Shown: piece by piece, positions 1 through 2,354 of the stretch | Numbering within the stretch: the first letter of the stretch is position 1 | Layout of the letters: every line of letters begins with the position of its first letter | Virus record (IMG/VR): IMGVR_UViG_3300030107_001126 | Coordinates: 1 to 20,359 of that record | From: a virus | Direction: 5' to 3' (one strand) | DNA: 20,359 nucleotides | The notes under the pieces: model-generated | Database searches by the model: none | Seen by the model: only the letters and a program-made list of their open reading frames with translations | What the model was told of the DNA's origin: nothing | Made by a program: the position numbers and the translations under genes

Positions 1-258
1 AGTCGTGCTCTTCATTTCTTCCTTGCTGCTTGGCCCGTCACTTGCATATGGTTTACCGCCATGGGTGTTTCTACAATGGCTTTTAACCTCAACGGATTTA
101 ATTTTAATCAATCCATCACAGATGCAAGTGGAAGAGTCGTCCCTACATGGGCTGACGTATTGAACCGAGCTGACCTCGGTATGGAAGTAATGCATGAGCG
201 TAATGCTCATAATTTCCCGCTCGACTTAGCGGCTAAAGAAGTCACGCCAATCGCTTAA
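1..258 (+). CDS. psbA: Photosystem II D1 protein, C-terminal part (left end cut by window)
   Basis: The frame is open from base 1 and gives 85 residues of D1, starting [20 protein letters not shown], the last transmembrane region and lumenal tail. D1 is the reaction-centre subunit that carries the manganese cluster. Aligned to standard D1 numbering, the cluster ligands of this part are all present: His332, Glu333, His337, Asp342 and Ala344, in the run [17 protein letters not shown]. After Ala344 only eight residues follow (AKEVTPIA), against about 16 in most cyanobacterial D1 precursors, so the extension removed by the CtpA protease is short but present. Phage copies of psbA are known to sustain photosynthesis in infected marine cyanobacteria. 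Position just upstream of capsid genes is usual in cyanopodoviruses. The start lies outside the window. Identity is essentially certain. Confidence 0.98.
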
Positions 259-262
259 CGCC

Positions 263-322
263 ACGTCCGTTCATCCATTTTTATGGACGCATGAAAACCA
301 AGGCATGGAACGGGGCTTTGGT
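263..322 (+). promoter_or_regulatory. Glutamine riboswitch, Downstream-peptide type
   Basis: Three stems around a junction and a pseudoknot can be drawn by hand. P1 pairs CCGTTC (267-272) with GAACGG (308-313). P2 pairs TCCAT (274-278) with ATGGA (283-287) across a TTTT loop. P3 pairs CATG (290-293) with CATG (304-307). The P3 loop ACCAAGG (297-303) pairs with CTTTGGT (316-322) as a 7-bp pseudoknot with one G-U pair. The conserved-looking words CGTTCATCC, GGACGCATG and GGAACGGGG, and their order, match what I recall of the Downstream-peptide RNA, a relative of the glnA RNA. Both classes bind L-glutamine and occur in marine picocyanobacteria and cyanophages, typically before very short genes. 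A 19-codon gene starts 17 bases after the pseudoknot, and its weak ribosome site (AAGG, 328-331) lies six bases beyond it. The fold is seen directly; ligand and regulatory direction are inferred from the family. Confidence 0.85.
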
Positions 323-338
323 AGATTAAGGTATTACT

Positions 339-398
339 ATGACTTTAACCTATCGTGGCGTGAAGTACGTTAAAACTACTCACACAAACTCTAAATAA
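339..398 (+). CDS. 19-residue mini-gene under the riboswitch (MTLTYRGVKY peptide)
   Basis: The peptide is MTLTYRGVKYVKTTHTNSK. The opening LTYRGVKY resembles the N-terminus of small cyanobacterial proteins of the DUF4278 type, which begin with a similar TYRG(V/L)xY motif and are often encoded behind Downstream-peptide riboswitches. An AAGG at 328-331 is correctly spaced for a weak ribosome binding site. It lies directly after the predicted pseudoknot, so folding could change access to it. Four bases separate its stop from the outer membrane protein gene, so the two may be translated in a coupled way. The peptide is much shorter than the cellular relatives and has lost everything after the motif, so it may act as a regulatory peptide or only as a translated leader. 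No biochemical role is known to me. Confidence 0.7.
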   Translation: MTLTYRGVKYVKTTHTNSK

Positions 399-402
399 CT
401 AA

Positions 403-765
403 ATGAAAAAACTTGCACTTGTCCTAGCAACCACTCTTGCTTCTACACCTGCAATGGCTGGACCATATGTAAACGTAGAATCTAACACATCTTACACTGG
501 ATCTGATTATACATCAAGGGCTACCGATCTACATGTAGGTTATGAGAACACACTTGGTTCTTTTGACTGGTATGCACAAGGCGGTAAGACAATCAACGCT
601 GCAGACGGTGTTGACTCTGACTCTAATTGGTCTGGTAAAGTAGGAGGTTCTGTATCTGCTACTGAAAAGCTAGGTATCTATGGTGAAGTAGCCTTCTCAA
701 ATATCTTTGATGAAGATACTGATAACTCATGGGGCACTAAACTAGGTGCTAAGTATAGCTTCTAA
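403..765 (+). CDS. Small secreted outer membrane beta-barrel-like protein
   Basis: Residues 1-20 form a classical Sec signal peptide: MKK, then LALVLATTLA, then an AMA cleavage site before GPYVNVES. The mature part is about 100 residues of alternating hydrophobic and polar positions rich in Gly, Ser, Thr and aromatics. It has short strands such as LHVGYE, FDWYAQGG, WSGKVGGSVS and LGIYGEVAF, separated by Asp/Asn-rich turns. It ends in GAKYSF; a terminal Phe after alternating residues is the usual recognition signal for the outer membrane BAM machinery. Similar small proteins occur near psbA in other cyanophages and are usually annotated as hypothetical or structural. Likely sites are the host outer membrane or periplasm, for example in blocking superinfection like the Lom-type proteins, but this is inference. 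There is no clear Shine-Dalgarno; it follows the mini-gene by four bases. Confidence 0.75.
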   Translation: MKKLALVLATTLASTPAMAGPYVNVESNTSYTGSDYTSRATDLHVGYENTLGSFDWYAQGGKTINAADGVDSDSNWSGKVGGSVSATEKLGIYGEVAFSNIFDEDTDNSWGTKLGAKYSF

Positions 766-1205: not shown

Positions 1206-2354
1206 ATGGCTCAACAGTCTACCGCGCATCAAGCGTCGGTAACTATGCCCGGTGCTTCCAATAGCACTGGTGATAGAAGAGCCCTTTACCTCAAGCTGTT
1301 CAGTGGCGAGATGTTTAAAGGGTTCGAATATAATGCAATAGCCAGAGATCTTGTTATGAAGAGAACCCTAAAGAATGGGAAATCTTTACAGTTCATCTAC
1401 ACAGGACACACCAAAGCTGAATTCCATACTCCAGGAAATTCTATCTTGGGTAACTCAGACGGTGCACCTCCTGTTGCAGAGAAGACAATTACTGTTGATG
1501 ATCTACTCATCTCCAGTGCGTTTGTCTATGAGCTAGACGAGACTCTTGCACATTATGAATTGAGAGGAGAGATATCTAAGAAGATTGGATATGCACTTGC
1601 TCAGAAATATGATAGACTAATCTTCCGTGCCGTATCTCGGGGCGCAAGAAAAGCTAGCCCAATTACTAAGGCTAACTTTGTAGAACCAGGTGGTACTCAA
1701 ATTCGTGTTGGTACTACAGCTGATGCTAACGATGCATACAGTGCAACTGGTTTGGTGAACGCATTCTATGATGCTGCAGCCGCACTAGATGAGAAGGGTG
1801 TTAGTTCTGAAGGTCGTGTAGGTGTTCTTAACCCACGTCAGTACTACGAACTAATCCAACAAGTAGGTGAAAACGGCCTAGTTAACAGAGACGAGCAAGG
1901 TACATCCCGTCAAAAGGGTAATGGAATTGTAGAGATCGCTGGTATCAAGGTTTACAAATCTATGAACATACCATTCTTAGGTAGATATGGTACTGCTTAT
2001 AAGCCTTCCTCTGGTAACAATGATGCTTTACATACTAACGTAGAAGATCCTGGTAACACAGGTAGTTTTGTGGCTGAAGAAGTTGAAGATGCACGTAACT
2101 CTGTTACTGGTATCAACAACGAGTACGGTCAGAAATCTAACTATGATAATTCTTGTGGTCTTATCTTCCAGAAAGAAGCTGCTGGAGTTGTAGAAGCAAT
2201 CGGTCCTCAAGTCCAAATTACATCAGGTGATGTTTCCGTGATTTATCAGGGTGACGTTATTCTTGGTAGATTGGCTATGGGTGCTGACTATCTTAACCCA
2301 GCTGCTGCTGTTGAACTGTACGCTGGTACAGCAACTGCACCTGCTGCATTCTAA
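1206..2354 (+). CDS. gp10: Major capsid protein, T7 gp10-like
   Basis: The 382-residue product matches the T7 gp10 / HK97-fold capsid family along its length. Near the N-terminus DRRALYLKLFSGEMFKGFEY corresponds to the T7 segment DKLALFLKVFGGEVLTAF. NGKSLQFIYTGHTKAEFHTPG corresponds to SGKSAQFPVLGRTQAAYLAPG. VDDLLISSAFVYELDETLAHYELRGE corresponds to the T7 gp10 helix containing DGLLTADVLIYDIEDAMNHY. The middle part (NPRQYYELIQQ, IAGIKVYKSMNIP) fits the A-domain region. It is slightly longer than T7 gp10A (345 residues). The ATG follows AATAAGAAA, so the ribosome site is weak. A folded leader precedes it and a strong terminator follows, which sets it apart as its own unit, as in T7. A gp10B-type frameshift product is not evident. 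Confidence 0.97.
   Translation: MAQQSTAHQASVTMPGASNSTGDRRALYLKLFSGEMFKGFEYNAIARDLVMKRTLKNGKSLQFIYTGHTKAEFHTPGNSILGNSDGAPPVAEKTITVDDLLISSAFVYELDETLAHYELRGEISKKIGYALAQKYDRLIFRAVSRGARKASPITKANFVEPGGTQIRVGTTADANDAYSATGLVNAFYDAAAALDEKGVSSEGRVGVLNPRQYYELIQQVGENGLVNRDEQGTSRQKGNGIVEIAGIKVYKSMNIPFLGRYGTAYKPSSGNNDALHTNVEDPGNTGSFVAEEVEDARNSVTGINNEYGQKSNYDNSCGLIFQKEAAGVVEAIGPQVQITSGDVSVIYQGDVILGRLAMGADYLNPAAAVELYAGTATAPAAF

Follow-up and report, generated by a model that had tools for sequence, protein, structure and literature searches.

The window, i.e., the whole stretch of DNA analysed, is a virus fragment of 20,359 bases (IMG/VR record IMGVR_UViG_3300030107_001126). Because it carries capsid, tail, and internal virion protein genes and its nearest relatives are Tangaroavirus, Cheungvirus, and others, its source is classified by sequence as a T7-like cyanophage (Autographiviridae). 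The placement of the site in a phage late region by the initial annotation is supported. The riboswitch and its surroundings are composed as follows:

1..258 (+), 3' end of psbA (photosystem II D1), the upstream neighbour; partial match to Pfam Photo_RC (1.9e-5) and DNA similarity to psbA of related cyanophages
265..322 (+), Glutamine-II riboswitch aptamer; Rfam RF01704, 56.0 bits, E 2.3e-11, model positions 1-60 of 60
268-272 with 308-312, plus C290:G313 (+), PK helix; mapping onto 6QN3, where 268..272 correspond to C1-C5
274..287 (+), P1 hairpin (274-278 with 283-287); mapping onto 6QN3 and covariation
297..322 (+), P2 helix of 8 bp with one G-U pair (297-304 with 315-322); mapping onto 6QN3 and covariation
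315..359 (+), alternative hairpin, candidate OFF state (315-332 with 342-359); fold of 313-362 at -14.1 kcal/mol, z -2.57
328..331 (+), Shine-Dalgarno-like AAGG, read from the sequence, seven bases ahead of the start codon and five past P2
339..398 (+), mini-gene of 19 codons, MTLTYRGVKYVKTTHTNSK, plus stop, putatively for a one-repeat YRG (DUF4278) peptide; PF14105 fragment, conserved, supported by pN/pS
403..765 (+), gene of a cyanophage outer-membrane-like protein (OMP); PF24653 5e-45, phrog_417; a neighbour that is not constant
1206..2354 (+), major capsid (head) protein gene, the constant downstream neighbour in relatives; phrog_27239, 2.7e-82

No sigma-70 promoter was found between psbA and the mini-gene of the window. 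A terminator-like hairpin is located at 917-942, and a tRNA gene (67.8 bits) at 1010-1080 separates a small ORF from the capsid gene. Phage NATL1A-7 has a tRNA-Gly at the corresponding place.

The aptamer exceeds the RF01704 gathering cut-off of 33 bits. Its E value given above was computed against all 4227 Rfam families, and it is 5.3e-15 when only its own genome is searched. Membership in the Glutamine-I class (glnA, RF01739) was rejected, as its model scores 20.6 bits where 35 are required. The RNA at 265-322 almost certainly belongs to the Glutamine-II class, formerly Downstream-peptide, which is the glutamine-type class proposed in the initial annotation, and as far as sequence can show it is an ordinary member of this known class.

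Parts of the aptamer were assigned by mapping onto the solved crystal structure 6QN3 (PMC6698751). Compared with that source, the core words are kept in the window as CGUUCA at 268-273, CGCA at 288-291, and GGAACGGG at 307-314, and the A:G pair closing P2 is present as A305/G314. P2 encloses the 3' strand of the PK helix (308-312). A pseudoknot of 7 bp had earlier been drawn between 297-303 and 316-322; this helix is real and represents P2, only it was drawn one pair short, and which of the two crossing helices gets the name of pseudoknot is a matter of drawing.

A pattern fixing only CGTTCA, CGCA, and CATGGAACGG, and leaving P1 and P2 free, recognized at least 120 loci in IMG/VR. In 113 unique phage aptamers among the matches listed, P1 layers were paired in 97% and P2 layers in 96%, while shuffling of the 3' sides over these kin sequences gave 81% (maximum of 500 shuffles 85%) and 64% (maximum 68%), respectively, the shuffle figure not being a probability. 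Many compensatory pair types occur, such as GC, TG, GT, TA, CG, and AT in the first layer of P2. The PK helix is complementary in the window and invariant across loci; as it is partly fixed by the search pattern, this is uninformative either way. The free energy of the aptamer alone is ordinary (z -1.25) and not informative, and the reality of the aptamer is argued from the covariance-model score and covariation instead. The Rfam models and covariation in related phages had both been suggested as checks in the initial annotation, and on both, the latter for P1 and P2, the assignment holds.

The mini-gene and the ribosome site near the aptamer were recognized correctly from the start. What had been missed is that the product of the mini-gene is a piece of DUF4278; with this, the link to nitrogen becomes much stronger. 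The peptide matches positions 1-15 of the 57 in PF14105 (DUF4278) with E 7.7e-4 and 20.2 bits; this score is below the Pfam cut-off of 25.3 because the peptide is truncated and only 15 of the 57 positions remain. Judged by this match, it is a DUF4278 fragment or one-repeat relative and not a full member. Among the matches listed, a YRG mini-gene begins 21-29 nt past the core in 117 of 121 viral aptamer loci, and the remaining four are truncated by contig ends. These 117 mini-genes start with ATG or GTG and have frames of 13-60 codons, mostly 17. Their peptides share the motif [L/Y/F]-x-Y-R-G-[V/I/T]-x-Y-[T/K]-[K/R]. YRG was the rule by which mini-genes were selected; the second Tyr was not selected for and is invariant in all 93 unique peptides. 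The pN/pS of the peptides is 0.30 (34 independent pairs), and they are under purifying selection. In the T7-like isolate records examined, the mini-gene lies mostly in an unannotated gap; in S-RIP2, an annotated hypothetical gene covers it.

Codon usage in the YRG motif is strongly biased (mini-genes of loci L001-L120), with CGT/CGC for 94% of Arg, GGC for 65% of Gly, and TAC for 84% of the second Tyr, in contrast to phage genes, which are rich in AGA, GGT, and TAT. The bias is equal in short and long mini-genes and perhaps reflects high expression or host origin. That these codons are kept solely because their RNA pairs with the ribosome site is unlikely, since long mini-genes share the CGT/CGC and GGC/GGT bias while their YRG codons are far from the ribosome site and show no pairing signal there.

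Among the matches listed, 87 loci extend 1.6 kb or more downstream, and in 85 of them the capsid gene follows on the same strand. Where the scaffold gene is present on the contig (58 loci among the matches listed), psbA lies between it and the riboswitch in 32 and is absent in 26, with hli, gp222, or the scaffold gene in its place. As the capsid gene is so constant and psbA is missing that often, the riboswitch module belongs to the scaffold-capsid interval and not to psbA. The initial annotation had supposed that the switch ties psbA to the nitrogen state; this was abandoned, because psbA is located upstream and a switch in a 5' leader would not act on an upstream gene. The OMP gene, taken there for another partner, proved to be an optional neighbour. 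Two neighbours of the switch are constant: the YRG mini-gene directly behind it and the capsid gene further on. It could be supposed that the module is only a host leader that came in with auxiliary genes and has persisted by chance or because it serves as a spacer, as host origin is plausible and the aptamer does lie within the auxiliary-gene stretch between the scaffold and capsid genes. Such a passive relic is contradicted by the covarying helices and the purifying selection, as well as by the occurrence in several T7-like genera at a constant position, also where psbA is lacking, and it is extremely improbable.

Of the annotated T7-like records bearing psbA that were examined, nine out of 11 had an aptamer above the RF01704 cut-off (9515-10a, P-SSP7, P-SSP10, NATL1A-7, P-GSP1, P-SSP3, S-RIP2, P-SCSP-R27W, and fosmid S45-C4). 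No Glutamine-II aptamer was identified in 7B11-B and Syn5 in the covariance-model scan of these records. In S-SBP1 (L129), a sub-threshold match of 19.6 bits at 2506-2539 is limited to the aptamer's 3' half (model positions 25-60) and is overlapped by an annotated CDS; this copy is a decayed or divergent aptamer. A loose pattern was used in a wider scan of genome contigs, and its non-cyanobacterial hits, mostly due to chance, were ignored. One contig from the Tara Red Sea binned as Dehalococcoidia (L249) combines a Glutamine-II aptamer with a YRG mini-gene of the phage type, MTVTYVYRGVKYTRKK, and is probably a misbinned cyanophage contig. A search of the available papers found no description of the T7-like module, which is weak evidence of novelty.

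Type 2 glutamine riboswitches are regarded as ON switches of translation (PMC6698751), and those of picocyanobacterial hosts switch on DUF4278 genes upon glutamine (PMC6316151). In the predicted alternative hairpin of the window, the 3' arm of P2 and the Shine-Dalgarno sequence are paired with codons 2-7, and the start codon is in the loop. Short mini-genes with their leader fold better than their synonymous versions (mean z -0.84, Wilcoxon p 1e-5, 25 cluster representatives), with 90% of 73 loci below zero, and the hairpin signal is absent from long mini-genes in the same synonymous-codon fold test. This suggests that the first codons of short mini-genes also serve as an anti-Shine-Dalgarno sequence. 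Without glutamine, the beginning of the mini-gene would pair with the P2 arm and the Shine-Dalgarno sequence and the ribosome site would be hidden; with glutamine, the P1-PK-P2 fold would be stabilised, the P2 arm withdrawn, and the hairpin partly freed, so that high glutamine would turn on translation of the 19-residue YRG peptide. Predicted exposure of the Shine-Dalgarno sequence hardly changes in the window (0.21 free and 0.22 with P1 and P2 enforced). Across 116 loci, its mean rises from 0.35 to 0.42, with an increase of more than 0.1 in 39 and a decrease in 10. The release step is what we infer, as the energy model, which is without the pseudoknot, predicts little release for the window, and its average effect across loci is modest. 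Glutamine-ON translation of the window mini-gene is likely.

The extra pairing of the ribosome site with mini-gene codons would also suit a translated RNA leader, in which the switch and the mini-gene together tune the OMP and capsid genes and the peptide itself does little; the constant place ahead of the capsid gene, in 85 of 87 loci, points in the same direction. This role is quite improbable in view of the gap from the mini-gene stop to the capsid match (median 259 nt, and up to 1306 nt with intervening genes), the purifying selection on the peptide, and the use of the same peptide motif elsewhere by hosts and T4-like phages.

Among cellular loci, picocyanobacteria with the same aptamer code mostly for DUF4278 proteins of 33-57 residues with two or three YRG repeats. 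The 33-residue form adjoins tRNA-Ser in two of these loci (L164 and L264) and, by its length and position, fits the Yfr6 peptide of Prochlorococcus MED4, which has 33 aa and is coded in the trnS-nrdJ region (PMC1242208). The 5' UTRs of yfr6 ORFs were described by Weinberg et al. as Downstream-peptide RNAs (PMC2864571), and Yfr6 drops under nitrogen depletion (PMC1242208). In the literature, DUF4278 is assigned a stabilising function within IF17; that factors of this kind regulate glutamine synthetase is unproven in marine picocyanobacteria (PMC6316151). No convincing solved structures were found for host DUF4278.

The picocyanobacterial Glutamine-II riboswitches (Prochlorococcus RS01 of 6QN3 and MED4 yfr6) are the closest known systems, as they share with the window the aptamer fold, core words, distance to the start codon, and a small DUF4278/YRG protein behind. 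The window copy differs from them by its presence in a lytic T7-like phage, ahead of the capsid gene, and by a peptide with one YRG repeat in 19 codons. The Glutamine-I (glnA) switch before gifB/IF17 of Synechocystis is also a glutamine-sensing ON switch with DUF4278 in its product, but its aptamer architecture is another one and the C-terminal part of IF17 is missing from the phage peptide. In the papers searched, phage glutamine riboswitches were reported only from T4-like cyanophages and from phages of heterotrophs (PMC9602691, PMC9964418, PMC9004378). Those of T4-like cyanophages and of OM43 and SAR11 phages are phage-borne as in the window, and the T4-like cyanophage ones also precede YRG proteins; unlike that of the window, they are glnA-type, often in tandem, and away from the capsid gene. 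The glutamine riboswitch of phage Melnitz is linked to tmRNA, unlike the one in the window. What is new is the combination, in a phage, of this riboswitch with a one-repeat peptide next to the capsid gene; the aptamer class was already known.

In T4-like cyanophages (P-SSM2, P-SSM7, S-SM2, and many IMG/VR contigs), two-repeat YRG proteins (phrog_545 and phrog_5049) are encoded behind tandem glutamine aptamers that are nearer to the glnA class. They are located at L141:1712 ff in P-SSM2, L143:1738 ff in P-SSM7, and L144:1724 ff in S-SM2, PSSM2_320 being an example. That two phage lineages with two aptamer classes have the same cargo speaks for a glutamine-related function of the peptide. In these three records, thymidylate synthase (td) is coded soon after the YRG genes.

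The second of the tandem aptamers was enlarged in 52 out of 80 cases by about 120-180 nt replacing the small P1 loop, and 28 were plain. A nested ORF of 49-66 codons, starting at the P1 strand (CGTTCATCYC-ATG), is carried by 48 of the enlarged aptamers (in L141, L143, L144, and IMG/VR loci L265-L384, e.g., L267:3737-3916 and L308:1778-1972). It stops at the aptamer's own TGA or TAA before AGGAACGG, and its C-terminus, such as WDAND, is encoded by the core. P1 of the enlarged aptamers is still paired, with five layers at 94% or more. The pN/pS of the nested ORF is 0.37, and its products are in phrog_504 or phrog_13397 (unknown function). The start codon of the nested ORF would be buried once the second aptamer forms.

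In phage-infected MED4, two antisense RNAs rise early, one of them Yfr14, opposite yfr6, and the other opposite PMED4_04601, a gene for a protein with 67% identity to a part of the Yfr6 peptide (PMC2518516). P-SSP7 carries its own riboswitch and YRG peptide, while the MED4 antisense RNAs oppose two host YRG-like genes. The phage of the MED4 infection data set, from the 2007 study of Lindell et al., is said to be P-SSP7.

The explanation preferred here, with some reservation, is that the phage Glutamine-II switch (265-338) turns on a peptide mimicking host YRG proteins at high glutamine and that this peptide acts in the glutamine feedback of the host. The phage peptide would be a one-repeat mimic of the multi-repeat YRG proteins of the host (DUF4278; Yfr6 in Prochlorococcus), acting during infection in the glutamine feedback on nitrogen assimilation. 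It is read in this way because of the cargo shared with T4-like phages, the early host antisense RNAs, the nitrogen response of Yfr6, and the module of P-SSP7. That the peptide works in this feedback, whether by reinforcing or by blocking the host proteins, has somewhat less than an even chance.

If blocking is the case, the single-repeat peptide would compete with the multi-repeat YRG proteins of the host so that the brake they exert upon glutamine induction is lost and phage nucleotides and protein continue to be supplied with glutamine, and the same switch would time the peptide to the host brake. The peptide has one repeat, whereas most host proteins encoded after this aptamer have two or three, its induction would be expected under the same signal, and the early antisense RNAs lie opposite two host YRG-like genes. 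An antagonist is, nevertheless, rather doubtful, as T4-like phages keep two repeats, unlike a minimal competitor, and the YRG motif has no known partner. Also unlikely is a contest of phage and host over glutamine feedback via YRG micropeptides, where two unrelated phage lineages would counter or take over DUF4278/Yfr6 proteins and the host would respond to infection by directing antisense RNAs at the YRG genes of its own.

Under the preferred reading of a glutamine-induced mimic, phages that infect the most abundant phototrophs of the ocean have a fixed glutamine sensor with a one-motif peptide beside their capsid gene. As the same pair of switch and mini-gene precedes the capsid gene in many relatives, these viruses probably read the nitrogen state of the host and act on it. 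The module makes the reading and bending of the host nitrogen state by a virus directly testable, and the YRG proteins found with both classes of glutamine riboswitches in two phage lineages point to a defined target for a motif of unknown function.
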